Shown: piece by piece, positions 13,780-31,986 of the stretch
How positions within the stretch are numbered: position 1 is the stretch's first letter
How the letters are laid out: each line of letters begins with the position of its first letter
Assembly (NCBI RefSeq): GCF_018860635.1
Contig: NZ_JAHKPT010000009.1
Coordinates: 1-64,000, forward strand
Length of the DNA: 64,000 nucleotides
Direction: 5' to 3'
Source: Aliiglaciecola lipolytica
GTDB lineage: Bacteria; Pseudomonadota; Gammaproteobacteria; Enterobacterales; Alteromonadaceae
The notes under the pieces: model-generated
Seen by the model: the letters and a program-made list of their open reading frames with translations, nothing else
What the model was told of the DNA's origin: nothing
Databases searched by the model: none
Translations under genes and position numbers: made by a program

Positions 13780-13814
13780 CAAACAAATATCAACGTTCAG
13801 TTAGTTAAGGTTAT

Positions 13815-13849
13815 CCCCCCAATTATTGAATAGCTCAATGATTGGGGGG
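13815..13849. terminator. Strong hairpin between creA and the kinase cluster
   Basis: A 15-bp inverted repeat (CCCCCCAATTATTGA and TCAATGATTGGGGGG, one G-U pair) with a 5-base loop sits between the convergent creA and kinase genes. No U-run follows on either strand, so it is a very stable hairpin that could end or protect both transcripts rather than a textbook intrinsic terminator. Confidence 0.6.
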
Positions 13850-13886
13850 TCACGTCATTGAGCTTTTGTCTTAACTCAGTGAAATG

Positions 13887-16190
13887 CTAATTCATCATCA
13901 CAGAAATTAAGGTTTTCACGCTCAATACAAACAGTACCCAAGCTAAGATTCGCCAAAAAATGCCAGCCTTAGTGTATGTTTTGTTGTCTGTTGACTTTTC
14001 AGCGACTTGTTCGGTTGTATGACTATTTGCTGATTTTGTACTTTGAGACTGGATGGTTTGTAAATTTACATGATTTTCGCTGCTCAAACGCAGTGGTTTC
14101 CCGTCTAAGCTTTTCACCTTCATCAAAATGTCGCTACCTTGGCAATACACAGACACTTCAATTTTGGGAATCCCCTTTGTAGCTGGCGAAATATCACTGA
14201 TATCAAAGGAACCTAAGAACACAGATTTACTCAATTTGTTGCTATTTCCCCGGTATAGATTAAGAGAAATTAGCTGCTGATTATCTTCTGAGGTAGAAAA
14301 AGTCTGCGATACAGGATTAGCTAAATTAGTGCCTTTAGTTACCAGAGGAGTCAAGGTGCTTCCCAAGGTTTCTATACCAATATTTTGTTGGGCGATCCCG
14401 TTAGTAATCGCTGGACTATTCTTTTCTAGTACGATAACAACTGCACCATCTTCGGTAACTGTCGTTTCGGTAGTTCCCGTGTCTGATGGCTCTAAGCTGA
14501 GGAAGAGGCTACCACGCAGCCGCGTTTCCGCGCCGAATGGCAGTCCGATTCCATTTAAGCGAATAGCTTGTCCGTTTTTATAGCCCTCGGGGACTTTTAA
14601 TTTAAACTGTCGATCAAGGGCGGTAAAAGGTATTTGATTGCCGGCGATGAGTTGATCCTCAGACACCCTAATAGAGGCATGCAAATCTTGCCCTTGAATA
14701 GTAAATACCGAGTGAGGCTGGATCGCTATTACGATATATAAATCACCAGCGGTTCCAGCAAAGCTGGTCACATTGCCTTCACCCTTTAAACGAATGCGAT
14801 CGGCGGTCATCACGCCTTGCGGAATTTTGACTCGCAATGCTTGATTCTGGGCGACTAAGCCTTTTCCTTTACAGACCGAACAAGAGGAGTTAACAGCTCC
14901 TTTGGCAACACAGGTTTGGCAAGATACGATTTTACTGAAATTGATATCTACGGTATTTTCCTGAACGGAATCTTCCAACGTGTACGCTAAAGTATGATTA
15001 ATATCTTTGCCAGCAAGATCGCCGGCACCTTCATCACCTTGAGCTGTGTGCTTAGTTGAACGTCGTTTTGGGTCGTCCTGACCAGCGATTTCAAGCTTCC
15101 AGCCATTACGCGTCGCCTCTGCCACTACGTATTTACGCACGGCCGATTCGTCGGCGCCTAAGCTGATGCCTTTACTAACCAGCATCGCCATTTCTGTCTC
15201 ACTAACCACACCATCAGAACCAGCTAATTCAAGCATATCATCCAATAATGAAAGCGGGTTTTGCTGCTGTGCCGCTTCACTTCCATCAATTTCAACACTG
15301 GCTAACAAACGCGCCTTAACTTCTAACATTGTTTGCGGACGTTCTAAGGGCTTAAATTTCAAACAGTCATCAATTAGGGTTAACAACTGAGTTGAATAGC
15401 CTAAATCGGTAAAACTGGTTGCAGATTTCAACGGATCTTCTCGGCCACTCACTATGGCCAATATGCGACTTTCAGCTTTGATACCTGCGGTACCCGAAAC
15501 GATACGATACATTAGTGCACCAAAAGCATGAATATCCACTGTGGGCTTAGCTTCACCAGTGCCTTCAATCTGCTCCATAGGTGCATAAAAGTCTGAGTAA
15601 GGAGCTTGCGACTGAGATGCCAACGCAAAATTCTGTTTGGCCGCGCCAAAATCAATTAACACAGGTGAACCATCGGAACGACGGATAAACACATTCGCAG
15701 GTTTAATGTCGCGATGTAATACACCTTGCTGATGTACGTAAGCTAAACCATCGGCCATAGGTAATAAAAAATGCAGCAATTGCTCTTGTGAATACCGTTG
15801 ACCTTGGGCTTCCAAACTGGTGATCAATTCATCTAGCGCTAACCCGTCTTCAAAATCCATCACCAAATAAGCAGTCCCATTGGCGGTAAACAGATCTCGA
15901 CAACGCACAACATTTTGGTGCCGCAGCTTCACTAATGTGCGACCCTCTTCCATAAATCGACGCAAACAATCACTGTACACATCTTGTTTCAAAGTCCCAT
16001 GGGGCACCACTGTTGTGCCCTGCCGACTTGCAAGTTCTACCGGTAAAAACTCTTTAATGACCACTTCTTCATTTAAATGGGCATGATGAGCTTTATACAC
16101 CACGCCAAACCCACCTTGGCCAAGTACCGACTCAATAACATAGTGATTTAACGGGGTGCCTTGAGGCAGCGCTAAAATATTCTCATCCAT
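13887..16190 (-). CDS. Ser/Thr kinase fused to DnaJ C-terminal and Hsp70 substrate-binding domains
   Basis: A 767-residue chimera, last gene of the cluster. The start is the ATG at 16190 overlapping the previous stop (TGATG); a TTG lies one codon upstream. Domains: Ser/Thr kinase about 17-298 (GQGGFG loop, VVIKEF lysine, HRDIKPAN, DFGAAK); an acidic TerB-like helical module about 312-364 (AGSDGVVSETE); a DnaJ-type region about 397-566 with a shortened zinc finger (CQTC and CSVCKGKG, one metal site instead of two) and IPQGVMTADRIRLKGEGN; an Hsp70 substrate-binding beta domain about 598-702 (NIGIETLGSTLTPLVTKGT, FSTSEDNQ, IPKIEV); and a C-terminal membrane anchor about 743-764. No J domain and no Hsp70 ATPase are present. 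I infer that a client-binding chaperone module targets the kinase to unfolded or specific proteins at the cytoplasmic face. Confidence 0.88.
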   Translation of the reverse strand: MDENILALPQGTPLNHYVIESVLGQGGFGVVYKAHHAHLNEEVVIKEFLPVELASRQGTTVVPHGTLKQDVYSDCLRRFMEEGRTLVKLRHQNVVRCRDLFTANGTAYLVMDFEDGLALDELITSLEAQGQRYSQEQLLHFLLPMADGLAYVHQQGVLHRDIKPANVFIRRSDGSPVLIDFGAAKQNFALASQSQAPYSDFYAPMEQIEGTGEAKPTVDIHAFGALMYRIVSGTAGIKAESRILAIVSGREDPLKSATSFTDLGYSTQLLTLIDDCLKFKPLERPQTMLEVKARLLASVEIDGSEAAQQQNPLSLLDDMLELAGSDGVVSETEMAMLVSKGISLGADESAVRKYVVAEATRNGWKLEIAGQDDPKRRSTKHTAQGDEGAGDLAGKDINHTLAYTLEDSVQENTVDINFSKIVSCQTCVAKGAVNSSCSVCKGKGLVAQNQALRVKIPQGVMTADRIRLKGEGNVTSFAGTAGDLYIVIAIQPHSVFTIQGQDLHASIRVSEDQLIAGNQIPFTALDRQFKLKVPEGYKNGQAIRLNGIGLPFGAETRLRGSLFLSLEPSDTGTTETTVTEDGAVVIVLEKNSPAITNGIAQQNIGIETLGSTLTPLVTKGTNLANPVSQTFSTSEDNQQLISLNLYRGNSNKLSKSVFLGSFDISDISPATKGIPKIEVSVYCQGSDILMKVKSLDGKPLRLSSENHVNLQTIQSQSTKSANSHTTEQVAEKSTDNKTYTKAGIFWRILAWVLFVLSVKTLISVMMN

Positions 16191-16522
16191 CAATTATTAC
16201 ACCTTAACGTTCCGTTCTTCATTATATATTCCTGTTCGCGCAATCGTACTCTCGATAAAATCCCTCTGCCGCTTAAGGCATCTTTTGCGGAGGGATTTCC
16301 AGCTCGCGCCGCTTTTTTATGCCATTCCACGGCTTTATTGTAGCTAGCACTCATTTTACTGGAACATGCAAAAGGCAAGGACTCTTTAATCACCACCATT
16401 TGGCGCAGCAAAGCATGCTGTGCTTTGTACACAACGCCAAAACCACCCTGTCCCAACACAGATTCAATCACATAATGATTAAGCTCTGTCCCTGTAGGTA
16501 AAGCAAATACATGATCAGTCAT
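16190..16522 (-). pseudogene. Relic of a kinase-Sel1 paralogue (internal deletion)
   Basis: A 110-residue open frame. Residues 1-50 match the kinase N lobe of its neighbours (NHYVIESVLGQGGFGVVYKA, then VVIKE). The sequence then jumps directly to a Sel1-type repeat end (YNKAVEWHKKAARAGNPSAK, about 61-80) and an unrelated tail. The catalytic loop, DFG and membrane helix are all missing, so it cannot be a kinase. This is what an in-frame deletion between the two ends of a kinase-Sel1 gene would leave. Its stop overlaps the start of the DnaJ/Hsp70-kinase gene (TGATG), so translation of the relic may still couple to that gene. It might be kept as a small decoy, but decay is the simpler reading. 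Confidence 0.75.
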
Positions 16523-16578
16523 TTAGCTATAAACAGCCCTTGGAATTATTACTATTTTTAATATTCAACATAATGGCT

Positions 16579-19038
16579 TTACCAAGTATATCCCTTGTCG
16601 GTTAACCTTTTTTGGGAATCCTCGTGGCCTTGCTTGGCTGCTTTTTTATACCATTCGATAGCCGTCGATAACGAGGTATTTACACCGCGACCAAACTCAT
16701 AACTAAGACCTAAATCGTATTGTCCCCATTGATTGCCTTGTTCAGCTGCCTTGCGATACCAATAAACAGCATCGGTATTTGATACCGGGACGCCATCCCC
16801 TCTTTCGTATTGCAAACCTAAACTAACTTGTGCGCTGGCATTCCCTAGGTCTGCTGCTTTTCGATACCATTTAATCGCCTCAGTATGGGATTGTGTCACG
16901 CCTTTACCATCTCGATACAGATTACCTAAGTTATGCAGTGCGGGTGAGTGATCATGCTCCGCTGATTTACGCAACCAATAGAGTGCATTGGAGTAAGATT
17001 GCTTCACTCCATCCCCATCTCTGTATAATATTCCAAGGTTATTCTGTCCGTATTTACTGCCTAAATTAGCGGCTTTTGCGTACCATTTTGCAGCTTCAGT
17101 TAAAGACTTACTAACGCCATAGCCGTTTTCGTACATATAACCTAAGTTATTCGCAGAATTTGCGTGATCTTGGTCGGCCGAACGTTTATACCAATACACA
17201 GATTGCTCGTACGAAACAGGAATATCAGAGTCATTACCAGTACGATAATTGTTACCTAAATCAAATTGCTTCTCAGCATCTGCGGGGTTCAATCCTTCAT
17301 TTGTCAATTTCCGTAAAGCTGCTTCAGCCAAAGATCGATAAATTCCAGATGGGTATGTGTTTAGATATCCATCATAATCCATCGCTGTATTAGCTTCTTT
17401 AGCCTTGTTCCAAGCGGTTTTATCGGCCGATTCGCTTTGACGTTGTTTCGCCACTCTTTCAAATTGGTCAATACGATTTTGAGCAGATGTGCGGTAGCGT
17501 CCTTCAGTTTGCACATCAAGATAATGTTGATAGGAGGAACGGGAGTTTAGTTTTACCGCTGCCGACCATGCTTGATCGTCCTCTTCCTTTTTATGCTGTT
17601 CGGCTTGTTGTTTTGCTAATATTTCAGCTTGCTGCTGTCTTTGATTATCGAGCTCACGTTGTTTTTGCTTTAAATAACGCTCTTGTTTAGCTAATTCTTG
17701 CTGCTTTTCTTCATAGAGTGAATAGCCATAGAAACTGCCACCTGAAACCAGAGCAAGTACAATAATCAAAGCCAACCATTTTAATCCTCCGGAAGATTCC
17801 ACTTTTTCGTTGGCTGGCCAAACAGGATCTGCTGTTGGAGTCGGCTTAGGGGGAGCGGGTGCAGGCGGCGGAGGTGTTGGCGACGGCGTGGGAATTGGAG
17901 TAGCAGACGGTTGTTCCGTTGCTGTTTGCTCAACCCCGTTGGCAAATCGCCAACCGTGTTGCGTCGCTTTAGAGACTACATATTGTTGCGCCTCGACAGG
18001 ATCAATGGTCAACATAACAGCCTTATCCAAGATCAGTTTCATTTCCGCTTCACTGATCTCACCATCGCTACCTGCAAGCGCAATTAAATCATCTAATTTT
18101 GCAAGCAAATTCAAAGGCTGGGCGCTATCGTCTTCGCTGTTATTAGCGCTTTTCAGTAATCGGTCTTTCACTTCTTGCATAGTTTGCGGACGATCATTTG
18201 CCCTAAACTGCAGACAATCATCTACAAGTTTGAGCAATGATTGACTAAACTCGCCTTTTTGCAGCTCAATCGCCGGAATTAAAGGATCGGGTTTTCCCAT
18301 GGCAAACGCTAAAGTTCGACTTTCTGCTTTAGTTCCCTTTTCACCTGTTACAATACGATAAATCAAGGCGCCAAACGCATGGATGTCGATAGTAGGTTTG
18401 GCCTCACCACCGCCTTCAATTTGCTCCATAGGCGCATAAAATTCTGTGTATGGGGCTTGCGATTGCGAAGCTAAAGCAAAGTTTTGTTTGGCTGCACCGA
18501 AATCGATAAGAACTGGTGAACCGTCACTACGACGGATAAAAATGTTAGCAGGCTTAATATCGCGATGCAGCACACCTTGACTATGGATATAAGCCAGCCC
18601 ATCAGCCAAGGGCAGCAAAAAATGCATCAATTGTTCTTGCGAATAATGCTGACCTTGGGACTCTAAGCTACTAATAAGTTCATCTAGCGCTAAACCATCT
18701 TCAAAGTCCATAACGAGATAAGCTGTACCATTGGACGTAAACAAATCACGGCAACGTACAACATTAGGATGGCGCAGTTTTACCAAAGTACGCCCCTCTT
18801 CCATGAAACGTCTTAAGCAATCTCCATATACATCTTGTTTCGAAGTGCCATGGGGCGTCACAGTTTCCCCTTGGCGACTAGCTAGCTCAACAGGCAGAAA
18901 TTCTTTAATCACAACTTGCTCGTTTAAATGGGCGTGGTGAGCTTTATACACCACACCAAATCCACCTTGACCAAGCACTGATTCAATAACGTAGTGATTA
19001 ATTTCAGTTCCGATAGGTAGCGCTAGTATATTTTCCAT
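16579..19038 (-). CDS. Membrane Ser/Thr kinase with extracytoplasmic Sel1 repeats (A)
   Basis: An 819-residue single-pass receptor-like kinase. The cytoplasmic N-terminal kinase (about 15-295) has GQGGFG, VVIKEF, HRDIKPAN and DFGAAK intact. A TerB-like acidic module follows (about 310-362, AGSDGEISEAE), then a Pro-rich linker (about 380-410), one helix (about 419-441, KWLALIIVLALVSGGSFYGY), and a Lys/Gln-rich coiled coil. Two repeats of an AW-x-YLD type helical motif come next, then six Sel1 repeats (about 575-805, LGYMYENGYGVSKSLTEA type) to the C terminus, predicted periplasmic. Sel1 repeats bind proteins or peptidoglycan-related ligands in other systems. The kinase part is close to those in the two sister genes, so recent duplication is likely. 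Same-strand spacing is about 55 bp on both sides. Confidence 0.9.
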   Translation of the reverse strand: MENILALPIGTEINHYVIESVLGQGGFGVVYKAHHAHLNEQVVIKEFLPVELASRQGETVTPHGTSKQDVYGDCLRRFMEEGRTLVKLRHPNVVRCRDLFTSNGTAYLVMDFEDGLALDELISSLESQGQHYSQEQLMHFLLPLADGLAYIHSQGVLHRDIKPANIFIRRSDGSPVLIDFGAAKQNFALASQSQAPYTEFYAPMEQIEGGGEAKPTIDIHAFGALIYRIVTGEKGTKAESRTLAFAMGKPDPLIPAIELQKGEFSQSLLKLVDDCLQFRANDRPQTMQEVKDRLLKSANNSEDDSAQPLNLLAKLDDLIALAGSDGEISEAEMKLILDKAVMLTIDPVEAQQYVVSKATQHGWRFANGVEQTATEQPSATPIPTPSPTPPPPAPAPPKPTPTADPVWPANEKVESSGGLKWLALIIVLALVSGGSFYGYSLYEEKQQELAKQERYLKQKQRELDNQRQQQAEILAKQQAEQHKKEEDDQAWSAAVKLNSRSSYQHYLDVQTEGRYRTSAQNRIDQFERVAKQRQSESADKTAWNKAKEANTAMDYDGYLNTYPSGIYRSLAEAALRKLTNEGLNPADAEKQFDLGNNYRTGNDSDIPVSYEQSVYWYKRSADQDHANSANNLGYMYENGYGVSKSLTEAAKWYAKAANLGSKYGQNNLGILYRDGDGVKQSYSNALYWLRKSAEHDHSPALHNLGNLYRDGKGVTQSHTEAIKWYRKAADLGNASAQVSLGLQYERGDGVPVSNTDAVYWYRKAAEQGNQWGQYDLGLSYEFGRGVNTSLSTAIEWYKKAAKQGHEDSQKRLTDKGYTW

Positions 19039-19093
19039 TTCAACACTCTTTTTCTAATTATTATTGCATTCACAACTAATTATTTCTGCCGCG

Positions 19094-21391
19094 TTACCAA
19101 GTTAGATTTCTGTTTTCTAACTCTTTTTGGGCTTTTTCATACCCTTGTTTGGCCGATAATCGATACCATTTTATCGCTTCAGATTCGGATTGAGGGACAG
19201 CATCACCATTTTCATACATGATCGCCACATTGTACTGCCCGACTCTGTTATTTTGATCCGCTGCCAATCGATAATATTTTAACGCTTCAGAATAAGATTG
19301 GGTTACACCATGGCCTTTGTAATATTGGTAACCATAGCTAACGTATGCAGAAGCTAATTCTTTTTCGACCGCTTTTTTGAACCATTTGTTAGCTTCTTGA
19401 TGTGACTGAGTTACCCCAATACCATCTCTATACATTGCCCCTAAAATATTTGCCCCATAGGCATTCCCAAGCTCAGCACTTTTACGGAAAAACTTTACTG
19501 CTTCAGAATAAGACTGCTCAACACCTTGGCCTAACTTATACAGAAGCCCAGCATTATTCATCGCCCCAGTTTCGCCCTGATCCGCAGCTTTTTTATACCA
19601 GTATAATGCTTGTTCGTAAGACTGTTGGCGACCATCTTTACCGTAATCAAAGTTATAACCTAGGATAAATTGTTCATTAGAATCAGTAGGGTTCAATCCT
19701 TGCTTGGTTAATTCAGCTAAGGCATCTAATGCTTCTTGTCGATGGATTCGAATGGACCCTTTATCTAAATAACCTTGATAATGTAATGCAGAGTTGCCTT
19801 TTTTCGCTATCGCCCAGTCAGCTTCATCGCTTTTGATTCGAGCTTGCTGCTGTTCCTGTATGATTTTCAATTCGGCAATGGCGCTATTTGCGGCATTGCG
19901 ATATTGACCAAATTGCTGGGTATCAAGATAGACCTGATAAGCCGCTGCGGTGTTGCTTGATTTCGCTTTGGCCCAAGCATTTTCATCTTCTGCCTTAAGC
20001 TTTAATGCAAGGCTTTCTTTTTGTTGTTGGTAGGACGCTGCTAATCGATTTCGTTCTTGTTCCTGTTGATAATCCACAATCGCTGGCAGAGCTACTAAAA
20101 TGCCTACAAATACAAGACTCGCTAGAAGCTTGGCTTTAAAAGAGGATGTTTTTTTAGCTTTATTCTGCTCCTCTTGAAGAGCAACTTTGTTGGTTTTTTC
20201 AGGCTTTTTCTTGAACGGAGGCTCCGGCTTATCAGCGCTGCTTGTTGACGGTCTGCTGTCCTTCTCAGGAGCATTAGTCGTGCTATCGTCTATTTTCCAA
20301 TGATTTGCTGCGGCTTTGGTTAATATATAACCTTTAGCTGCTTCGGCATCAATATTCAGTGTTTTAGCTTTACTCAGAATTAATCGCATTGCACTTTCCG
20401 AGATAATGCCATCACTACCGGCCATATCGATTAAATCATTGAGTAAATGAAACGGCTGAGGAGCAGGATCCGAGATAACCTCAATAAATGGCTCAGCAAT
20501 AAGCTGTAACCTTTGTTTTACCTCAGCCATTGTCTGAGGCCGATCTTCGGCCTTAAACTTTAAACAATCATCAATCAGGGTTAGAAAAGATTCAGAATAA
20601 TCCGCTTTGGCCAAACTCGCGGCTGGGGCAAGAGGATCATCTTTGCCTATCACCATGGCCAGCGCACGACTCTCGGCCTTAACCCCAACAGTGCCGGTTA
20701 CGATACGATACATAAGTGCACCAAACGCATAAATATCAATGGTTGCTTTGGCTTCTCCACCACCTTCAATTTGTTCCATTGGCGCATAAAACTCAGTATA
20801 AGGAGCCTGTGATTGAGATGCTAAAGCGAAATTCTGTTTTGCCGCGCCAAAGTCAATAAGTACAGGTAAACCTGTGCTGCGACGAATGAAAATATTAGCG
20901 GGCTTAATATCACGATGTAATACTCCTTGGCTGTGGATGTATGCTAATCCATCAGCTAGAGGTATTAAAAAATGCATCAACTGTTGTTCGGAATAATGCT
21001 GTCCTTGGGACTCTAGGCTACTAATAAGTTCATCTAAGGCTAAACCATCTTCGAAATCCATCACCAAGTAAGCCGTACCGTTGGCGGTGAAAAGATCTCT
21101 ACAACGGACAACATTTTTATGCTTAAGTCGAACTAAGGTGGCGCCTTCTCGCATAAAACGATTTAAGCAATCAGCATACAGGTCATATTTAGAAGAACTA
21201 TGGGGAGACACAGTTTGACCTTGACGACTCGCTAACTCGACCGGTAAAAACTCTTTAATTACCGCTTCATCATCTAGGTGAGCATGATGCGTTTTGTACA
21301 CCACACCAAAACCGCCTTGGCCTAAAACAGATTCAATAATGTAATGATTTAGCTTTGTACCTTGCGGCAATGCTAATATATTTTCATCCAC
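19094..21391 (-). CDS. Membrane Ser/Thr kinase with extracytoplasmic Sel1 repeats (B)
   Basis: A 765-residue paralogue of the preceding kinase with the same order: kinase about 15-297 (GQGGFG, AVIKEF, HRDIKPAN, DFGAAK), TerB-like module about 318-372 (AGSDGIISESA, where the acidic Glu pair is reduced), a charged linker, helix about 408-428 (LLASLVFVGILVALPAIVDY), a coiled coil, two AW-x-YLD repeats, and five Sel1 repeats. Both Sel1 kinases end in the same LTW or YTW tripeptide. The activation-segment block DFGAAKQNFALASQSQAPY is identical among all three full kinases, whereas the C-terminal parts diverge. This suggests a shared phosphorylation partner and different sensed ligands. Confidence 0.9.
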   Translation of the reverse strand: MDENILALPQGTKLNHYIIESVLGQGGFGVVYKTHHAHLDDEAVIKEFLPVELASRQGQTVSPHSSSKYDLYADCLNRFMREGATLVRLKHKNVVRCRDLFTANGTAYLVMDFEDGLALDELISSLESQGQHYSEQQLMHFLIPLADGLAYIHSQGVLHRDIKPANIFIRRSTGLPVLIDFGAAKQNFALASQSQAPYTEFYAPMEQIEGGGEAKATIDIYAFGALMYRIVTGTVGVKAESRALAMVIGKDDPLAPAASLAKADYSESFLTLIDDCLKFKAEDRPQTMAEVKQRLQLIAEPFIEVISDPAPQPFHLLNDLIDMAGSDGIISESAMRLILSKAKTLNIDAEAAKGYILTKAAANHWKIDDSTTNAPEKDSRPSTSSADKPEPPFKKKPEKTNKVALQEEQNKAKKTSSFKAKLLASLVFVGILVALPAIVDYQQEQERNRLAASYQQQKESLALKLKAEDENAWAKAKSSNTAAAYQVYLDTQQFGQYRNAANSAIAELKIIQEQQQARIKSDEADWAIAKKGNSALHYQGYLDKGSIRIHRQEALDALAELTKQGLNPTDSNEQFILGYNFDYGKDGRQQSYEQALYWYKKAADQGETGAMNNAGLLYKLGQGVEQSYSEAVKFFRKSAELGNAYGANILGAMYRDGIGVTQSHQEANKWFKKAVEKELASAYVSYGYQYYKGHGVTQSYSEALKYYRLAADQNNRVGQYNVAIMYENGDAVPQSESEAIKWYRLSAKQGYEKAQKELENRNLTW

Positions 21392-21438
21392 TATGTTTCC
21401 CCCCTAATGCCTTAACTTATCGATAATTTAAAAAATGA

Positions 21439-23997: not shown

Positions 23998-24006
23998 TTA
24001 TGATCC

Positions 24007-25887
24007 TTAACGACTAACATGTTTAGGTACTAGGCGCAGTGATTCACAGCTAGCATCAAGCAAAAATAAATCAAACGTTTGCCCAGTCTCTTGCAGGATA
24101 ATGTCGGTTAACCAAAAATAGCCTGAACTGGCAGGGTCAATATAAAGTACGGCGTCAGATTTACCTTTTTCAATTGTTTTTGCTTGTTGACTTTGAGCAC
24201 TTTGATATTGCTTAAAACAGGTTGCAAAATCATGGCTTGGAGAGTCTGGCACTTGTGATAAATTACTGACTTTGCCAGAAATCACCTCAATCCCTGAACT
24301 GGTTTTTTGGTAACGCAATAAAGCGCCATACACTGGTGTATCTTTGACCTTTAATTGAACTGTGATAATTTCAGTATATTGATCTTTCATCATATCCGTT
24401 TTGCTTAATTTACTGCCCTTTGACAAACTACCATCTTGGGTTAAACGATCTTCAAGTTTAGCAATGGGATCTTCACCAGCAGCAATGTCTAATTCTAAAC
24501 TTGGCGCTGAATCTAAATTGGCGTTCAAATCTGCAGGCCCAGATACATTGCCTTGCTCATCAGAACTAGCCACTACCGCTACATCAACATTTTTCACATA
24601 ATTTTTTACAGCCGAAGATGGTGGTGATTGCTCCATCGAATCAACACTTTTGTCAACCTCACTCACCGACTCTTCAACAGCTTGTTTCGCATCATCAATG
24701 GAGTCAGTTACCTCATTGGCGACCTGTGAACCAACTTGATCAAGGGATTTTTCAACATCCTCAAGCACTTGTTCAGCTTGGTTTTCAATTTCCTCTGTTT
24801 CTAAGTCGCTCGCAATCTTAGCATCACTATCAGTGCCTACTTCCTTGAGCATATCTTCATGCACTTGCGCATCATTAGGCGAAGGCTCAAACTCATCTTC
24901 GGTTAATATTTGCGGCTCATCGGTGCAACATGGTTCGATGGAGGTACGGTAGGTAAAGTAAAGCAACACTAACAACATTAAGGCCACAAGCGCCAAAGCG
25001 ATCACTTTCCAATTAACGACTGTCTTTATCTCGTTTTCACTAGGCGTGACTGTCTTATTCGTCACTGACGTCGGTGCGGTGTTGGAAACTGAAGTTTGTT
25101 GTTGTATCTGTGCCGCTGTCGCTGCCTCAACCTTGTTTTCAGATGTCAGCACAGCGGTGCTTTTATCCAATTCACACAATACAACGGTGGTATTATCTTG
25201 ACTAGGCTTAACTTGCAATGTGTCATCCATGCGGTTAGCGAATATGTAATCTCTATTGTCATTTTTGACTAACTCTAAGATTTCATCATTGTCGAAGATT
25301 TCCCAGAAACCGTCAGTACACAATACAAAGTACTCACCGTCATTTAGCTGCCAGTGAGTGATTTCACAATGGGCACTGTCACTACCATCAAGACAGTTCA
25401 AAAGTTGGGTTTGGCTTGGGTGTGTGGCTAATTCATCTTCGCGTATTTCACCCATCAAGAACTTTGCATAAGCAAGGGAATGATCTTTGGTTTGTTTTAC
25501 TTTGCCATTTTGATCAAATTGGTAAATTCGCGAATCACCAGCATGGGCAGTGACTAATTCTCCATTGAATTGCAATAATGCTGTTAGCGTAGCAGCGGTT
25601 GAAATACCTTGCTCACAGGTTTGTTTAATCGCTGCATTACACTGCTCTGCAAAAGCATTTAGAAAATCTTCAGCATGCATAAAATTATCGCGAGTTTGCC
25701 AGAACTCGCCACTTTTATTAGCGATAATTTCAGCTGCCAACTCGCCTTGCTTAGTGCCTCCCACGCCGTCCGCTACAACGATGAATATATCGTTATTCTG
25801 GTCACTCAAATGATAAGCATATCGGTCTTGATTGTAATCTCTGCCCGCTTGTTCAGATTTTTCAAAAATAATACGGTTATTAGACAT
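24007..25887 (-). CDS. Membrane PP2C-type protein phosphatase
   Basis: A 626-residue protein. The PP2C phosphatase domain (about 5-240) has the metal-binding aspartates Asp40 (VVADGVGG), Asp118 (AHAGDSR), Asp192 (LCTDGFWE) and Asp231 (SQDNTTVV). A Thr/Gln-rich linker precedes one helix (about 294-313, KVIALALVALMLLVLLYFTY). The C-terminal about 310 residues are extracytoplasmic: a very acidic coiled-coil-like stretch (about 325-440), then a small globular domain (about 500-626) I do not recognise. It would remove phosphates placed by the cluster's kinases. It lies 9 bp upstream of the M4-FHA gene and 23 bp downstream of a kinase gene, so the three are almost certainly co-transcribed. Confidence 0.9.
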   Translation of the reverse strand: MSNNRIIFEKSEQAGRDYNQDRYAYHLSDQNNDIFIVVADGVGGTKQGELAAEIIANKSGEFWQTRDNFMHAEDFLNAFAEQCNAAIKQTCEQGISTAATLTALLQFNGELVTAHAGDSRIYQFDQNGKVKQTKDHSLAYAKFLMGEIREDELATHPSQTQLLNCLDGSDSAHCEITHWQLNDGEYFVLCTDGFWEIFDNDEILELVKNDNRDYIFANRMDDTLQVKPSQDNTTVVLCELDKSTAVLTSENKVEAATAAQIQQQTSVSNTAPTSVTNKTVTPSENEIKTVVNWKVIALALVALMLLVLLYFTYRTSIEPCCTDEPQILTEDEFEPSPNDAQVHEDMLKEVGTDSDAKIASDLETEEIENQAEQVLEDVEKSLDQVGSQVANEVTDSIDDAKQAVEESVSEVDKSVDSMEQSPPSSAVKNYVKNVDVAVVASSDEQGNVSGPADLNANLDSAPSLELDIAAGEDPIAKLEDRLTQDGSLSKGSKLSKTDMMKDQYTEIITVQLKVKDTPVYGALLRYQKTSSGIEVISGKVSNLSQVPDSPSHDFATCFKQYQSAQSQQAKTIEKGKSDAVLYIDPASSGYFWLTDIILQETGQTFDLFLLDASCESLRLVPKHVSR

Positions 25888-25910
25888 TTATAATTCCCTT
25901 CCACGCGCTC

Positions 25911-26798
25911 TTATAATGGCAACGCTGCTTTAAATTCACTGATATCCTGATACCGGTGTTCAGGTTGCAGTTGAGTGGCATAAAATAATGCATTAGCAAC
26001 AGTATCGCCGCAGCTATGAGACACCTGTTCCAACAACATTAAAATAGGGTCGCTACCATCGCTGTTTGATTGCGTATATCGGTCAAACGCTTTAATCGGC
26101 CGTTGCCCTGTTAAAAGTTCAATTATCATCACCCCTAAAGCGTGGATATCAGTCCAAGGACCTATAGGGAAAACATTATATTCTTGTTCCAATGCAGCAT
26201 ACGACTGAGTATTTTGGGCTTGTTGACTCACGTAGCCACCCGCTACTTTTACCGCCCCAAAATCGATTAAAATAGGATGCAGCACTGCACCTGAACGTAG
26301 AAACACGTTACTGGCTTTAACGTCTCTGTGTACTAAGTTTTGTTGGTGTAAATAATCCAGCCCTGCTAATACGCCAGGTAATACTGCACTAATTTGTTGC
26401 CACGAAAACGGCTGGTTATGAATTTCAACTTGTTGCACATAACTTTCCCATAAGGTATTACCGATCTCTTGATGCATAACCATATAGGCAGTACCCGCTT
26501 CGTAAAAACAATCGTATACATAAACAATGTTATCGTGATCTAAGGTGAGTAAAGTTTCACATTCATTTTTGAACTGCTGCAATGCTGTTTCATAAACTTG
26601 GGTCAAATCCGCCATGAAGGGTTTGACCATGCCGTCAACACGGTGAGCAATTTGATTCGGCAAATACTCTTTAATAACCACTCGATATTCAAGGGAAGCA
26701 TGTTGGGCAAGATAAACAACACCGAAGCCGCCGCTACCCAGCACCTTTTCAATAACATATCGATGTATTCGATCGCCGGGTTGAAGTTCTCGTTCCAC
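25911..26798 (-). CDS. Soluble Ser/Thr protein kinase
   Basis: A 295-residue Hanks-type kinase with no membrane helix or extra domain. The glycine loop is GSGGFGVVYL (21-30), the ATP lysine Lys43 (VVIKEY), the catalytic loop HRDVKASN (157-164), DFGAVK (179-184) and the G-helix region GQRPIKAFDR. It is related to, but distinct from, the three larger kinases at the end of the cluster (about half the conserved positions differ). It sits between the VWA gene and the membrane phosphatase with 15- and 23-bp gaps. It is a candidate for the kinase that modifies the FHA partners. Confidence 0.92.
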   Translation of the reverse strand: MERELQPGDRIHRYVIEKVLGSGGFGVVYLAQHASLEYRVVIKEYLPNQIAHRVDGMVKPFMADLTQVYETALQQFKNECETLLTLDHDNIVYVYDCFYEAGTAYMVMHQEIGNTLWESYVQQVEIHNQPFSWQQISAVLPGVLAGLDYLHQQNLVHRDVKASNVFLRSGAVLHPILIDFGAVKVAGGYVSQQAQNTQSYAALEQEYNVFPIGPWTDIHALGVMIIELLTGQRPIKAFDRYTQSNSDGSDPILMLLEQVSHSCGDTVANALFYATQLQPEHRYQDISEFKAALPL

Positions 26799-26813
26799 AA
26801 TACTGTTCTTAAC

Positions 26814-27635
26814 TTACTTGGGCATGAGCGCAATTAACAACGCTGCGGTTAACGACCCGTTGGAAATATCTAAATAATTACCCAAGCCAGCTTTTGCCAA
26901 TCCTTGATAAAATTCTTTTTCGTGTTTTTCATCGCCAGAGTAACGCACAGATACGCTGTATTTTTCATTGGCGAAGCGTTGAACTTTGGTCATTAATGGT
27001 CGAGCTTCACCAGAGTGCGCTTCATCATCAGTAATGATAAAAATCACTCTACGTTGCGCCTCTGATCGCCATTTGGTGTCCAGCGCAGCTTCAAATCCTG
27101 CGTAAACCGATTCACCATTATCACCAGGGTTGAATCCTCTACCAATACCCAAGTTAAGATTGACTTGTTCTAAATAAGATTTTAAAACGGCGATATCTTT
27201 GGTGAGGGTAAGAGGGAATTCAGACACAGGCCGATCAAAGTTTTTATCTCCAAAGGCAACGATGCGCATGGCCGCTGAGTCAGATAACATTTCGATAATC
27301 CGTGCAATATTGCCAATTTCAGCACGTAAACCATTGATTTCTTGCCCCATACTGCCAGTCACATCTAATACCACCACTAAATCAAGGGTTTGCATTTTTT
27401 GGAACCCCGATGGCGTGGGTTTAGGCACTGGAACTGGATCAGGTTTTGGCACACTAGGCGGTGGACACACCTTCATTTCTGGACACGTTTGCGGCGCAGG
27501 TGCGGGAATTTTCGATACATTGCCAAAAAAAGGAAGTGAAATGACAGCGAGTAAAATAAACGCGCCCATTCCTGAAGCAAACAAATCTAAAGCTGACATG
27601 CTAAAGATATTGATTTCCCTACTTTTGAGCTTCAT
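26814..27635 (-). CDS. VWA-domain protein with MotB/ExbD-like N-terminal helix
   Basis: A 273-residue protein. The N terminus (FSMSALDLFASGMGAFILLA, about 11-30) is a single transmembrane segment with an aspartate (Asp17) near its start, the pattern seen in MotB/ExbD-type partners of MotA/TolQ/ExbB channels. A Pro-rich periplasmic linker with two cysteines (about 42-78) leads to a von Willebrand A domain (about 82-270) with the metal site DVTGSMGQE (Asp91, Thr93, Ser95) and FIITDDEAHSG. The channel-type gene lies five genes upstream in the same unit. I infer that this protein and that channel form an ion-driven complex with the VWA domain in the periplasm. It may alternatively be a TerY-like metal-sensing VWA. 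Confidence 0.85.
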   Translation of the reverse strand: MKLKSREINIFSMSALDLFASGMGAFILLAVISLPFFGNVSKIPAPAPQTCPEMKVCPPPSVPKPDPVPVPKPTPSGFQKMQTLDLVVVLDVTGSMGQEINGLRAEIGNIARIIEMLSDSAAMRIVAFGDKNFDRPVSEFPLTLTKDIAVLKSYLEQVNLNLGIGRGFNPGDNGESVYAGFEAALDTKWRSEAQRRVIFIITDDEAHSGEARPLMTKVQRFANEKYSVSVRYSGDEKHEKEFYQGLAKAGLGNYLDISNGSLTAALLIALMPK

Positions 27636-27695
27636 CTGTCGATTTCCCTTTTGATTACATCACCGGCAATGACTAACATTGCCGGTTAGGCAAAT

Positions 27696-29216
27696 TTAAA
27701 GCACTGTGACTTTAAACGATATAGTGCTTAAGCGAAGAACCATGTCATTGCTCAATTCCATCGGTTGACCTGGGATAAGCTGGACTTCATTTAACCAACT
27801 GCCGTTTTGACTTCCCATATCTTCCACATAGATTTTATTTTCGTGCAATCGAATCATTAGATGCTTTCTGGAAATCTCGCTCTCTCCCAAAACATAATCT
27901 ACTTGAGCACTTTCACGACCTATGATTTGACCTTCACTTTGCGCTAATGCTTTACCATTTATTTTAATTCTTACGGTGTCACCTTTGGTAGTCGAACCAT
28001 CTAATAAGATATCGTTGAAGGACTTCTCCATTGCTGCGATTTTACCCGCTAGATTATCTTTTTCCTGAGCAAGGCCACTGGCTTCTTTAACTTTATTTTG
28101 AAGTTCGTCTGTTTGCGCTTGCATCGCTTCTTTTCGCTTACGCATAAGAATGACGAACAGCAACAACATAACCAATAGCAAAACGCCACCACCTAATAAA
28201 ATGTAGGTTTTTTGCTGTTCAGACTTAGCCTGCTTTTGCGCTTCTAATTCGGCGGCTTGCTCTGCTTTGGCCTTAGCTTCTTCGAGCGCTAAACGTTCCT
28301 CTTCCGCTTTTTTGATAGCGTCTTCGGTTTTCTTTTGTTTTTCTAAATTTTCTGCAGCAATTTTAGCGGCTTCATCTTTCGCTTCTTGCAACAACCTGTC
28401 AGCTTCTTCTTTGGCTTCTTGCGCTTTCTTTTGAGCTTCTTCTAATTTGGTTTTCGCAGCCAAATCTGCATCTTCTTTGGCCTTTTTAGCAAGTTCAGCG
28501 AGTTTGCTTGCCTCTTCAGCGTCTTTTGCGGCTTGTTCTGCTTTGGCTTTTGCTTGCTCTACATCCGAAAGACAGACTTCATCAGCAACGCTAAAGGTAA
28601 TATTATTTTCACTTAGAAAAGACTTTAGTGTTTGTGTAGATAATGCATAAGCGATGTTTTCTGGCGCTTTCATACCCGCAAAAATGGCCGTTTCAAAAAC
28701 ACTTACACCTACCAATTGTTTACAGTTATTCAGTAAAGGCGCTGCCCACTGTCCTTCTTGGTAGAGCGCAGTGTGAACATAAATATCGCCTTCGGAGAGA
28801 TCTTTTACAGGCTCTAATCGCTGAACGATGGAAGGGGTTTCTTCAGAGTCGGTTTTTAAGATCAATTGTTCACCGACAGTTTGTGCCTCTTTTGCTAACA
28901 AAACAGGGTCACCAGTTACATTGCTTGCGGACAAAACCGCAAGGCGCTTGTCTTCGTCTTGGACTATCACTGTAGCCAGTATTTTAGCTGCTGGTGTCAC
29001 TGAGTTATCGACAATAAAAAGTGATTTAGCACCATCTATCACCTCTGCATCAGTGACAAACTGGTTATCATTCACTTTAGTCGCTATCGCCGTTTGGGTT
29101 TTACCGTTTTTACGCTCAATTTGAACTTGATAAGCGTACGTTTCCGCCGTGGCGGAAAATATCGTCGAACTAAAAACCAGTGCCAGTAGTGCTATCAATC
29201 TAGGTGACAAAAACAT
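27696..29216 (-). CDS. Membrane FHA protein with degenerate trypsin-like periplasmic domain
   Basis: A 506-residue protein. A signal peptide (about 1-24) precedes a trypsin-fold-like domain (about 25-205) with the right spacing of strands. The expected serine motif GxSGGPL is replaced by GQWAAPLLNN (about 155-164), and no catalytic His context is visible, so it should be proteolytically dead. A long Ala/Lys/Glu coiled coil (about 217-335), one helix (337-358, TYILLGGGVLLLVMLLLFVI), a short coiled coil and a cytoplasmic FHA domain (about 415-506; GRE 433-435, S449-x-x-H452) follow. The coiled coil probably spans part of the periplasm. It links a peptide-binding-like outer domain to a phosphothreonine reader. 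A 60-bp gap separates it from the VWA gene. Confidence 0.85.
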   Translation of the reverse strand: MFLSPRLIALLALVFSSTIFSATAETYAYQVQIERKNGKTQTAIATKVNDNQFVTDAEVIDGAKSLFIVDNSVTPAAKILATVIVQDEDKRLAVLSASNVTGDPVLLAKEAQTVGEQLILKTDSEETPSIVQRLEPVKDLSEGDIYVHTALYQEGQWAAPLLNNCKQLVGVSVFETAIFAGMKAPENIAYALSTQTLKSFLSENNITFSVADEVCLSDVEQAKAKAEQAAKDAEEASKLAELAKKAKEDADLAAKTKLEEAQKKAQEAKEEADRLLQEAKDEAAKIAAENLEKQKKTEDAIKKAEEERLALEEAKAKAEQAAELEAQKQAKSEQQKTYILLGGGVLLLVMLLLFVILMRKRKEAMQAQTDELQNKVKEASGLAQEKDNLAGKIAAMEKSFNDILLDGSTTKGDTVRIKINGKALAQSEGQIIGRESAQVDYVLGESEISRKHLMIRLHENKIYVEDMGSQNGSWLNEVQLIPGQPMELSNDMVLRLSTISFKVTVL

Positions 29217-29235
29217 GCCGATTTCCTTACGTCTA

Positions 29236-30012
29236 TTATTCTGTTAATTCTTCCGAGTCAGTTTCCTGAGAAACTTTTAATACCATTACCGTTGCATTAT
29301 CTTGATAATCTTGATCAAGACTATCCACATATCCCACAATATGTTCCGCCAATATTTGCGGATCAGATTGATTAAATCGATGACACATAGTGGCAATATC
29401 CTGTTCAGGAATACTCTCTATCCCATCACTGGCTAAAAGCACAATGTCGCCGACTTGCAGTTCAATGCTATTGATGTCCACCATGTCGACGTCATAACCC
29501 ATCACCGCAGAAGTTAATTGATTGCGCTGGGGATGAACGGCAACGTCTTCGGCGGTCATCACGCCTTCTTCAACCAACTGCATTAATTCAGATTTTTTTG
29601 AATGGTCTTGATTTATGCGTTGCAGGGAATTGCCTCGACACAGCCATAAAGGGCTATCTCCAACACTCAGATAATCCAAATGTTCGCCTGTAAATGCCGC
29701 CGCGATTAGCGTCCCGCCCATGCCGTTGCATTCAGGATTTTCGATGATATATTCAGCTAAATGTTGATTTGTGGCGTTTAAACTTAGTTGCAAACGCGCG
29801 TCCATGTGCTCTTCTTCACTACTGCAAAAAGCGTCATTAAAGGCTCGTAAAATTTCCTGACTGGCAACTTCACCATGAACCGCACCGCCCATACCATCAG
29901 ATAAAACAGTTAATGCAAACCCGTTGGGCCAAACCAATTTGGTAACACCATCTTGCTGATAGTCTCGCTTTCCGACGGTTTGAGCCCATCCTACGGAGAT
30001 TTGTAGCATCAT
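29236..30012 (-). CDS. Soluble PP2C-type protein phosphatase
   Basis: A 258-residue cytoplasmic PP2C. The start is the ATG at 30012, which overlaps the stop of the FHA gene (TAATG); an in-frame TTG lies three codons upstream. Metal and phosphate motifs are QTVGKRDYQQDG, LSDGMGGAVHGE, VGDSPLWLCR, LLASDGIES and DNATVMVL, all with the required aspartates. There is no membrane segment, unlike the second phosphatase of the cluster. Soluble PP2C enzymes of this type (PppA-like) pair with kinases and FHA proteins in type VI secretion and TerY-P systems; here the same trio occurs without type VI structural genes. Confidence 0.9.
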   Translation of the reverse strand: MMLQISVGWAQTVGKRDYQQDGVTKLVWPNGFALTVLSDGMGGAVHGEVASQEILRAFNDAFCSSEEEHMDARLQLSLNATNQHLAEYIIENPECNGMGGTLIAAAFTGEHLDYLSVGDSPLWLCRGNSLQRINQDHSKKSELMQLVEEGVMTAEDVAVHPQRNQLTSAVMGYDVDMVDINSIELQVGDIVLLASDGIESIPEQDIATMCHRFNQSDPQILAEHIVGYVDSLDQDYQDNATVMVLKVSQETDSEELTE

Positions 30013-30785
30013 TATTCCCAATTAAAATTTTGGTCGCAAAACGCTACAAACCTTAAGGTCGTGGCGCCGACTTTTAATAGGCTTCCTGTCTGCAATACAG
30101 TCTGGCCTGCGACAATTTGTCCATTCACTCGATTCAAGCTCGAGCCATTACCGGGAGCCACTATAAACTCGCGATTTTCATCGTCATATATAACTAATAA
30201 CTGCTGTTTAGAAGTAATAGAAGTGTCACCAAAGTTTAACGTAATGCGCTCAGTGGGTGAGCGAGATATGGCACTTTGGCCTGGGCCTACGACCACACTT
30301 TTACCTTTACCTGGACCATCAACCACTACCAACCAGCCGCATACAAAAGATTCAGCACTGGCCTGCGAAGCATTGCCACCGACACTTGCCCCTGCGCTGG
30401 CTCCCCCAAAGTTAATTGAGGTTTTAGGTTCCTCTACCACAGGTCTAGAAGCCGCTTGTTGTCCGCCTGGCGGAATAGCGTTTTCCGGCGAATTTCCAGC
30501 GGCGTTATCTTCCCCTGGCATATTAGGTGGTCGTGTAGGCGGTTCAGGTGGAACCGCCACTCCGCCTGGACGCATCGCAGGACCAGAGGATTTCATATGA
30601 TTAAATAAATCGACATTGGGCGGTTGTGTCGCCCCTTCTTTTGGCTTACTGGCTTGGCCACCAAACTGACCTTGCGGCGGTTTAGTGCCGCCATCAGGTC
30701 CCGATTGGGTTGGTTTATTATCATTTTTAACAAAGCTTGATTCGATTTCGATTGGTTTCCCATCTGGACCACGTCTAAAGCTCAT
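30012..30785 (-). CDS. Pro/Gly-rich protein with atypical FHA domain
   Basis: A 257-residue protein. The start at ATG 30785 is favoured by AGGAG eight bases upstream; a GTG at 30794 overlaps that site. The first about 150 residues are low complexity (Pro, Gly, Gln, Ser), opening with MSFRRGPDGKPIE. The C-terminal about 105 residues are FHA-like (GWLVVVDGPGKGKS to TTLRFVAFC). The usual Gly-Arg is Ser-Arg (ISRSP) and the S-x-x-H histidine is absent (TSKQQ), so phosphothreonine binding may be lost or altered. The fold otherwise looks complete. It sits between the channel gene (about 18-bp gap) and the soluble phosphatase (1-base overlap). Confidence 0.82.
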   Translation of the reverse strand: MSFRRGPDGKPIEIESSFVKNDNKPTQSGPDGGTKPPQGQFGGQASKPKEGATQPPNVDLFNHMKSSGPAMRPGGVAVPPEPPTRPPNMPGEDNAAGNSPENAIPPGGQQAASRPVVEEPKTSINFGGASAGASVGGNASQASAESFVCGWLVVVDGPGKGKSVVVGPGQSAISRSPTERITLNFGDTSITSKQQLLVIYDDENREFIVAPGNGSSLNRVNGQIVAGQTVLQTGSLLKVGATTLRFVAFCDQNFNWE

Positions 30786-30803
30786 GGTTTTCACTCCTTA
30801 ATT

Positions 30804-31613
30804 TTAATCTGCCGCGATTAAGCGGTTTACTAATCTGTCTAAACAATACTGGCCAACCAGATTTAACGCTTTTTCTTCTCGTCCTTGGGCCAGATGCATA
30901 AAAAATACTAACGCCGCAGACATAATTAGCGCTAATAATGTTGTATTGAAAGCTACGCCAAGCTTAATAGTGATGACGGCAACCCACCCTTTGATCGCAT
31001 CAGAATCGGATAATGGTGGCATATCACCCGCACTGGACAATGCCATTGCGATACCTATCACGGTGCCAATAAAGCCTAATGTAGGAATAAGCCAAACTAA
31101 GTAACGCACCATGGTGTACTTTAAATCGACTTCGTGTTGCATTAACTCCAAAGAGGAATTCATAAGATTGTTAGCTTGTTCAGTGCTGCGGGAAAGTTGA
31201 AACTGTAAAATAATTCGTTTAATTAAGCGTTGCAGGTAAAAACGACTGCCAAGGTTATCAGCTTTAATAGCTTGATATATTGGACCTAAGTCTTTGGGTC
31301 GATAAAGAGCATCTTCATCATCACTGATTAAACCGCGGTTTATTTGATTTATTTCTTGGGTTGCCCTTTGCCAGCGTACCCAAATCTCGCCAGCACAAAC
31401 AAAGAAAAACACCCACATTACATTCTGAATAGTAAAGGGATAAGAAGGACCACTGCGGTCAAAAAGAATATCAGCTAAGCGCATTTCTGTGCTGATTTCC
31501 GGCTGCTTATCGGTCAGTACAAAGCCGATAATAATGATTACTAAAGCAATGAAAGACATTGCCAGTAACACAACCAGACGATAGTAAGATTCTTCTTTCT
31601 CCAAACTGGTCAT
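30804..31613 (-). CDS. MotA/TolQ/ExbB-type proton channel
   Basis: A 269-residue inner-membrane protein. Helices lie at about 8-30 (VVLLAMSFIALVIIIIGFVL), 45-65 (FTIQNVMWVFFFVCAGE), 168-192 (YLVWLIPTLGFIGTVIGIAM) and 208-232 (FNTTLLALIMSAALVFFM). A cytoplasmic loop of about 100 residues separates the two pairs. The conserved PTLGFIGTVIGIA and the following Thr-rich helix are the MotA/TolQ/ExbB signature; the channel family forms pentamers around a single-helix partner. Its ATG overlaps the stop of the upstream FHA gene. The VWA protein at 26814-27635 has the matching single helix with an aspartate. No tonB, exbD or tolA gene is in the cluster. Confidence 0.9.
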   Translation of the reverse strand: MTSLEKEESYYRLVVLLAMSFIALVIIIIGFVLTDKQPEISTEMRLADILFDRSGPSYPFTIQNVMWVFFFVCAGEIWVRWQRATQEINQINRGLISDDEDALYRPKDLGPIYQAIKADNLGSRFYLQRLIKRIILQFQLSRSTEQANNLMNSSLELMQHEVDLKYTMVRYLVWLIPTLGFIGTVIGIAMALSSAGDMPPLSDSDAIKGWVAVITIKLGVAFNTTLLALIMSAALVFFMHLAQGREEKALNLVGQYCLDRLVNRLIAAD

Positions 31614-31909
31614 ATACCACGGCTCCTGCTCTTAATTTGATATGCGATCATGATTTCCATTATGCGAAGTTTCGTCTCACCAACCACGATATAATCGTTG
31701 GCGCTTAACGTCACTGCGTCAAATTGAAGCCATTGACTCCCTTCCCAATAAAATGATCCATATGATGAGCCACAATCTCTGACTTCAATAAAGTCTAGAC
31801 TATTGATTCTTAGTTGTAAGTGGTTACGAGAAACACTGGGATCATTAATATGAACGTCATTTGTTTGCGCGCAACGACCCACACTTATGACAGTGTCACT
31901 AGTAAACAT
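31610..31909 (-). CDS. Small stand-alone FHA protein
   Basis: A 99-residue FHA domain and nothing else. It has the GRC motif (VISVGRCAQTND), S-x-x-H (DPSVSRNHLQL) and the C-terminal asparagine-loop equivalent GSSYGSFYW. It is the first gene of the 18-kb cluster and overlaps the channel gene by 4 bases (ATGA). No strong Shine-Dalgarno precedes its ATG. A promoter-like pair and a 17-bp palindrome lie just upstream. It likely reads phosphothreonines put on by the cluster's kinases and may bring partners to the channel. Confidence 0.88.
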   Translation of the reverse strand: MFTSDTVISVGRCAQTNDVHINDPSVSRNHLQLRINSLDFIEVRDCGSSYGSFYWEGSQWLQFDAVTLSANDYIVVGETKLRIMEIMIAYQIKSRSRGI

Positions 31910-31912
31910 ACG

Positions 31913-31929
31913 AAAAATGCTGCATTTTT
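31913..31929. promoter_or_regulatory. 17-bp palindrome at the head of the FHA/kinase cluster
   Basis: AAAAATGC-T-GCATTTTT is a perfect inverted repeat 4 bases upstream of the first start codon and downstream of the predicted promoter. Placement fits an operator, or an RNA hairpin that covers the weak ribosome-binding region. No regulator gene is adjacent. Confidence 0.45.
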
Positions 31930-31957
31930 AAGCAATGAATATTGGGTTCCGAATTTA

Positions 31958-31986
31958 ATACTAGCGGTAGTTGAAAAGTCGAACAA
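31958..31986 (-). promoter_or_regulatory. Candidate sigma-70-type promoter of the cluster
   Basis: On the minus strand TTGTTC and TAGTAT are separated by exactly 17 bp, about 50 bp upstream of the first gene. It is the only good pair seen in the 256-bp gap before the cluster; the rest of that gap (to 32165) is AT-rich and featureless. Confidence 0.45.

Follow-up and report, generated by a model that had tools for sequence, protein, structure and literature searches.

A gene cluster at positions 13887-31909 of a 64,000-nucleotide stretch of Aliiglaciecola lipolytica DNA (the window, by which we mean that whole stretch) combines a MotA/TolQ/ExbB-like channel subunit and a VWA protein with Ser/Thr kinases, PP2C phosphatases, FHA-domain proteins, a metallopeptidase and a degenerate trypsin-like protein. 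This gene set is real and conserved, and it is built on a type of motor that was proposed in 2025. Its composition suggests a trans-envelope motor, driven by the proton motive force, whose engagement and linked periplasmic proteolysis would be controlled by threonine phosphorylation; we give this mechanism an even chance of being correct.

Conservation of the core gene order

The cluster comprises 13 consecutive frames, all on the minus strand, of which 12 are intact genes and one is a kinase relic, and it reads from FHA_small (31909) to pknD (13887). At its head stands FHA_small (31610..31909), a 99-residue FHA protein (Pfam FHA, 7.7e-10) whose gene overlaps the next by 4 bp. The MotA/TolQ/ExbB-like channel subunit (30804..31613; 269 residues; Pfam MotA_ExbB, 4.4e-10), hereafter MotA, is the predicted pentameric wheel of the motor. 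It is followed by FHA_sol (30012..30794), a soluble protein of 260 residues with a long, poorly conserved tail, which bears [DE]xxT sites at T87 and T125, and a C-terminal FHA-like domain, and by a cytoplasmic PP2C phosphatase (29236..30021; 261 residues; Pfam PP2C_2, 3.6e-9) that matches the NCBIfam Stp1 model at 3e-41, below the cut-off of that model.

Through a MotA alignment, 76 loci were found in the genome collection; 77 were counted, which include L024 and leave aside L021-L023 as duplicates of L037, L038 and L040. FHA_sol is present in 50 of these 77 related motor loci, a figure that applies to MotA relatives, through which the sample was drawn; many of the loci are contigs of metagenome-assembled genomes (MAGs). 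Over the whole fetched stretch, the 50 loci with FHA_sol also show a PP2C (49), a kinase (47), a transpore helix (46) and another FHA domain (49), and the 27 motor loci without FHA_sol show a transpore helix in 25, a kinase in six, an FHA domain in two and a PP2C in none. The order of the 50 is often tight, with spacings of up to 150 bp from MotA to FHA_sol in 42, from FHA_sol to the PP2C in 42 and from a small upstream FHA frame to MotA in 36. By record name they belong to seven phyla (Pseudomonadota, Acidobacteriota, Latescibacterota, Rhodothermota, Bacteroidota, Gemmatimonadota and Binatota), the non-proteobacterial loci being MAG records with taxonomy as named in the record. Because the core recurs, with its order kept, in other families and phyla, the cluster is not a product of chance. 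The neighborhood search proposed by a first-pass annotation of this DNA, made from the letters alone, thus finds the gene set conserved in other genera, families and phyla.

The closest named loci lie in two Aliiglaciecola genomes, where MotA is 94-95% identical, and two other species within the genus also carry the cluster. In Pseudidiomarina mangrovi (G032; L023, L040) the order is the same down to the M4 peptidase gene and two kinases then follow; L024, from another family, carries a shorter core. A strong MotA match is present in three of eight genus genomes (G000 included) and absent from the other five, one of which is 59% complete. FHA_sol is found in 10/369 class-level and 13/398 phylum-level genomes, with the genome of the window counted in both. 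Eight of nine genus-level genomes have creA, and the genes beyond it differ among four cluster-free genomes, so a clean empty site did not emerge. Three records of the plasmid collection matched, one of them over most of the query; this is an unannotated 1.33-Mb Rhizobium leguminosarum replicon with a MotA relative at NZ_CP125637.1 163369-164052 (44%, over 90% of the query). Phage carriage was considered and rejected, as none of 74 pattern matches in viral contigs is a relative by tblastn. Several isolate codes among the MAG records of L047-L105 look sponge-derived, and a link to host association would be a guess from names only. Genes of ~310-360 residues that follow the kinase or PP2C in L044, L061, L062 and L067 have no Pfam match above cut-off.

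The cluster is not an assembly artefact, since the complete genome G098 of the same species carries it and aligns at 98.4% DNA identity over 19,510 columns. Frame calls bear out the 13 same-strand frames, one a relic, that the first-pass annotation had listed at 13887-31909, and Pfam confirms each of its four kinases, two PP2Cs, M4, VWA and MotA_ExbB assignments. Its count of five FHA domains in four proteins is recovered by Pfam in three of the four; the 260-residue FHA_sol of the window has no significant Pfam FHA match, and the count holds by homology because the L024 orthologue of FHA_sol matches Pfam FHA (E 1.9e-9). Two of its details have to be corrected. Intergenic gaps, given as starting at -4 bp, range from -10 to +60 bp, with the -10 value hinging on a TTG start. 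The promoter-like pair placed at the head is unsupported: a scan of 13500-32300 gave 23 promoter-like sites against 38.8 expected in shuffles and listed none at 31910-32160, and the site nearest the head, a 9/12 match at 32260-32233, lies inside the upstream MFS frame. A terminator scan gave 20 against 17.9.

The predicted motor and its proposed phosphorylation circuit

The putative partner of MotA, encoded at 26814..27635, fuses an ExbD/TolR-like transpore helix (TPH) bearing Asp17 to a periplasmic VWA domain (Pfam VWA_4, 1.8e-8) and is the predicted axle of the motor. It had been annotated as a VWA protein, which is right as to the domain but misses the helix. All of 73 sequences carry Asp17 and the pore threonines of MotA, T184, T224 and T225, are kept in 74 of 74, both counts including the window. 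Structure predictions were AlphaFold2 (AF2) monomers only; the model of the window MotA has a predicted local distance difference test (pLDDT) score of 87.9, and its best Foldseek matches are TolQ, ExbB and ZorA chains, with a best E of 1.6e-3 and none below 1e-3. By pattern search only, DxSxS/DxTxS is found in 29 of 29 relatives that match both the helix and VWA profiles. Pfam scans of the cluster proteins gave no match to a separate ExbD, and the window harbors one TPH-VWA protein, not a heterologous pair; among the 50 loci with FHA_sol, only L050 shows two. On these sequence features, MotA and the VWA protein with its invariant Asp helix should form a proton motor, for which we infer a 5:2 assembly and proton-driven movement.

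A motor of this kind, in which a TolQ-like channel is joined by a vWA protein that bears a transpore helix, with ExbD absent, has been proposed (PMC12204202; Mol Biol Evol 2025). In that paper the motor type is predicted from Idiomarina homologues, predominantly vWA pairs, and is assigned no function; 'kinase', 'phosph' and 'trypsin' occur 0 times in its main text and 'FHA' only within FhaC. Ten loci of the wider order, L025-L034, in which MotA is 30-40% identical, have two (L025, L028, L030-L034) or one (L026, L027, L029) transpore-helix proteins beside the TolQ-like gene; none of the neighbors listed gave a kinase or FHA match. Further single-transmembrane proteins lie near the TolQ-like gene at these loci, which apparently represent the 2025 TPH-vWA family in kinase-free form.

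Four kinases accompany the predicted motor. PknA (25911..26798) is a soluble Ser/Thr kinase of 295 residues with intact motifs, whereas pknB (19094..21391) and pknC (16579..19038) each encode a kinase domain, a transmembrane segment and Sel1 repeats that are predicted to be periplasmic. PknD (13887..16193) joins a kinase domain to DnaJ_C and HSP70-like parts ahead of a C-terminal transmembrane segment and might sense unfolded protein; DnaJ_C-bearing kinase frames are also seen in L021, L022 and L052. All four keep the GxGGFG, VIK, HRDxK and DFG motifs, and across the loci HRDxKxxN and DFG are present in 60 of 71 kinase frames scoring above 80 bits, some of these frames being cut. The relic (16190..16522), a kinase start abutting a Sel1-like end, retains the first two motifs only. 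L021 retains a related remnant between its pknC and pknD genes and in L022 no separate match was found, which indicates that kinases are gained and lost. In L044, a cluster kinase (15338-17341) ends in an FGE-sulfatase-type domain in place of Sel1 repeats.

The conserved features of the FHA_sol tail would fit a role as a kinase substrate. In the alignment of FHA_sol (38 of 48 listed references plus the window; that of MotA holds 38 of 75 references plus the window), two Thr columns are occupied in 37/39 and 35/39 sequences, with D or E at -3 in 33 each, and a third in 25/39; the best column among 12 shuffles reached 10/39, with 4 for D/E at -3. In OdhI and GarA, a conserved Thr phosphosite lies in the tail that precedes the FHA domain. 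FHA_sol shares this layout, and we predict that its tail sites constitute a phospho-switch of the OdhI/GarA type, though with a different partner and pathway. When the distance matrices of the three proteins MotA, FHA_sol and PP2C are compared over 46 loci, the correlation is 0.86, against no more than 0.15 in permutations. Shared species history contributes to this value, which cannot separate co-evolution from shared descent.

Tethered proteases and a transmembrane phosphatase

The M4 (thermolysin-like) metallopeptidase (21439..23997; Pfam Peptidase_M4_C, 1.1e-37, and FHA, 2.6e-30) is made up of its own FTP propeptide, a catalytic part, a Pro-rich linker, a transmembrane segment and two FHA domains; the catalytic part is predicted to lie outside the membrane and the FHA domains inside. 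Its catalytic residues (HExxH and the downstream E and H) are intact in 15 of 15 copies, the window included. The pseudo-trypsin (27696..29216), in contrast, has E/R/W at the triad positions, followed by a coiled coil, a transmembrane segment and a cytoplasmic FHA domain. The earlier description of a degenerate trypsin-like protein stands as regards the lost triad, but the Trypsin_2 match is weak (E 0.0025) and below the Pfam cut-off. Among the 50 loci with FHA_sol, the M4 peptidase is found in 14, always beside a degenerate trypsin and never beside an intact one, and an intact copy with the HDS triad is found in 20; the two active types occur together in none, a pattern absent from the first-pass annotation. 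The remaining loci have a degenerate trypsin only (10) or show none (six).

PP2C_TM (24007..25887) consists of a cytoplasmic PP2C domain (Pfam PP2C_2), a transmembrane segment and, in its last ~177 residues, a periplasmic domain resembling an M4 propeptide (FTP-PepSY). Structure prediction shows this outer half in the fold of an M4-protease propeptide, which the first-pass annotation had not noticed. Modeled alone, the outer domain of the window protein reached a pLDDT of 92.1, and its top Foldseek matches are 3nqz_A and 3nqy_A, both vibriolysin MCP-02, with Z scores against the two chains A of 12.4 and 12.3. The alignment to 3nqy_A covers 158 residues at a root-mean-square deviation of 3.5 and falls on chain residues 25-204, which we take to be the propeptide; the next structural matches are a chain of a fungal metalloproteinase (Z 9.5) and YycI and YpeB (Z 6.8). 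Relatives of the protein point the same way. Of the M4 profile, only the propeptide part, up to about positions 157-198, is matched by the outer half of the long PP2C in seven M4 loci (two of which, L045 and L046, are apparently copies of one), and in the two relatives tested Pfam FTP matches this half above cut-off (L044, 8e-9; L049, 7.1e-6), with PepSY below cut-off in one. In hhalign, as single-comparison values, the window clade aligns to these relatives at 3e-12 and the relatives to the M4 propeptide at 3e-16. A PP2C longer than 480 residues is present in 14 of 14 M4 loci and in one other, L080, which missed the M4 profile. One of the 14, L052 (Pseudomonas sp. WN033), has the PP2C and the M4-FHA protein as one polypeptide with one propeptide. 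We infer that the outer domain of PP2C_TM may bind or sense the M4 protease.

Proposed mechanism, rival readings and known systems

In the mechanism we propose, a MotA/TolQ pentamer would surround a dimer of the TPH-VWA protein and deliver force or rotation into the periplasm. Kinases with variable sensors (the periplasmic Sel1 repeats, or the DnaJ_C/HSP70-like part) would phosphorylate threonines, foremost the conserved [DE]xxT sites in the FHA_sol tail, and the FHA domains of FHA_small, FHA_sol, the pseudo-trypsin and the M4 protein would dock on the phosphosites, gathering these proteins round the motor. The active protease, M4 here and intact trypsin in other lineages to judge by the catalytic residues, would cut an envelope target, with its FHA tail as the cytoplasmic control. 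The PP2C would reset the circuit, and PP2C_TM could hold or sense M4 via its predicted propeptide fold and so couple the state of the protease to dephosphorylation. The likely output would be regulated envelope remodeling or surface-protein processing. Phospho-control of an inner-membrane machine does exist: in the type VI secretion system (T6SS) of Agrobacterium, Fha binds a phosphothreonine of TssL in the inner membrane (PMC3953482). In a bolder form, the cluster would represent a new class of envelope machine, a 5:2 motor that is phospho-gated via FHA docking and physically linked to proteases tethered in the inner membrane, with a transmembrane phosphatase as protease inhibitor in trans, such that one loop would link the protease state outside to the phosphorylation state inside; this we put forward tentatively, with doubt the stronger side. 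If the mechanism is right, we would know for the first time of a 5:2 motor under the control of Ser/Thr phosphorylation, and also of a protease propeptide reused as the outer domain of a signaling phosphatase. The 2025 TPH-vWA motors, of no assigned function, would gain a tractable genetic context, and predictions could be made at named residues: Asp17 in the axle and Thr87 and Thr125 in FHA_sol.

Several observations weigh against this proposal. A MotA profile found no match among PDB sequences, of three axle proteins examined in other lineages, two lacked a VWA match in the periplasmic part, and the FHA_sol proteins of the window clade, as read from the alignment, are missing the usual FHA histidine. 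The PP2C_TM of the window has no Pfam FTP match and its domain aligns weakly to the M4 propeptide in a direct hhalign comparison (probability 34%); its homology to the propeptide thus rests on the intermediate relatives and the fold. Neither intact protease type is seen in 16 of the 50 loci with FHA_sol. Because eight of these (L053-L055, L077, L078, L095, L098 and L111) have more than 9 kb on both sides, an active tethered protease is not universal. Moreover, the M4 rows are grouped in one region of the MotA tree (74 rows including the window, after a length filter), and L045 and L046 have identical MotA rows. Since the M4 rows share one tree region, the mutual exclusion of M4 and intact trypsin is best described as one replacement with later losses, that is, as mostly one phylogenetic event, and we do not claim many independent ones.

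The signaling genes also occur away from the motor. Sampling a second time, now by way of FHA_sol, in 369 and 398 partly overlapping genomes gave 24 loci, with MotA in reach in four and not in 20. Five of these stretches are shorter than 9 kb (two among the four with MotA, three among the 20 without), one match is weak (G511), and one of the four loci that have MotA (L141) duplicates the DNA of L062. An exclusive link between FHA_sol and the motor is ruled out by this sample. In L154 (11403-15856) and L157 (5309-7606), from genomes of the phylum of the window, kinase, FHA_sol and PP2C are followed by dynamin-type GTPases (Pfam). The three genes may thus form a portable cassette that could have targets besides the motor, because loci with FHA_sol and no MotA exist, some with dynamin-type GTPases. 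Taken further, such a phospho-signaling cassette would attach to different machines and would here be a neighbor of a TPH-vWA motor and proteases that leaves the motor ungated. In favor of this reading stand the loci just named, the ten TolQ/TPH-vWA loci of the related order whose listed neighbors gave neither a kinase nor an FHA match, and the 27 motor loci without FHA_sol. We consider this somewhat unlikely: the interleaved order FHA-MotA-FHA_sol-PP2C is maintained across phyla, FHA domains are fused onto the membrane proteases, and a PP2C is paired with, or fused to, M4.

Three further readings relate the cluster to known systems. In Zorya, ZorB is an OmpA-type domain protein, and ZorA belongs, like MotA here, to a MotA/ExbB/TolQ-family motor with extra domains. 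A Zorya-like anti-phage defense, in which the motor would sense phage perturbation of the envelope and the phospho-circuit would trigger an effector, fits the ZorA chains among the Foldseek matches, weak matches of MotA to ZorA profiles (E 0.0035, the best, over 71 residues, 0.0045 and 0.0081) and the accessory presence in the genus. However, MotA has 269 residues against the 413-698 positions of the ZorA profiles, its partner is a VWA protein and not an OmpA-type ZorB, and the viral contigs held no relative. PADLOC and NCBIfam scans of 10 of the 12 intact proteins (without pknB and FHA_small, and with neighboring genes outside the scan) gave generic kinase and PP2C matches, with no ZorB, ZorC or ZorD among the PADLOC matches shown and nothing over the NCBIfam cut-off among the rows shown, so we judge this reading improbable. 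An Agl-Glt-type machine for surface motility or adhesin handling seems to us a long shot as well. The Myxococcus AglR/Q/S motor, of the TolQ type, works with GltG, a membrane protein with FHA and TonB parts (PMC3169522), and vWA force transducers have been proposed for such a role (PMC12204202); yet no outer-membrane protein was matched in Pfam scans of the cluster, Agl-Glt has two separate ExbD/TolR proteins where a single TPH-VWA protein is found here, and the passage of the gene table consulted in PMC3169522 names no kinase, PP2C and protease set. Least credible, to the point of being very improbable, is an orphan T6SS threonine-phosphorylation module or a kinase-PP2C-vWA (TerY-P) triad. 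Kinase, PP2C, FHA and VWA domains are held in common, and a TagH-type profile matches the FHA part of the M4 protein (E 1.4e-16, below the profile cut-off), but the core is conserved with the motor instead. The first-pass annotation had seen no T6SS structural or ter gene, and family searches of the whole genome agree: VipB/TssC (PF05943, the one T6SS family searched; the control was positive in E. coli) and the TerD family (PF02342; the control was positive in two genomes) each gave 0 matches, which disfavors a T6SS or ter origin.

The statement that no described system has this gene set holds in part. Searches aimed at the gene set among open-licence PMC papers, a body without preprints, listed no recognizable description of the set as a whole, and in PMC9389320 there are 0 matches for FHA, phosphorylat-, vWA or kinase, with a single irrelevant match in PMC12505986; the motor half, however, was proposed in 2025 and the signaling half is also found without the motor. 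The cluster resembles the PpkA-PppA-Fha threonine phosphorylation pathway of T6SS in having Ser/Thr kinase, PP2C and FHA genes together, there in control of a trans-envelope machine, and differs in that the genome has no VipB and the machine is a predicted 5:2-type motor with proteases. It likewise shares vWA, PP2C and kinase genes with the triads of PMC7159879, in which the vWA gene is standalone, whereas here the domain is fused to a transpore helix and the genome has no TerD. As in the TPH-vWA/TolQ motors (PMC12204202), there is a TolQ-like subunit and a tethered vWA protein whose transpore helix carries a conserved Asp, with no ExbD/TolR gene. Unlike those motors, which predominantly have heterologous vWA pairs and for which the main text names no kinase, phosphatase, FHA domain or trypsin, the Aliiglaciecola cluster places one TPH-VWA protein inside a gene set for phospho-signaling and proteolysis.

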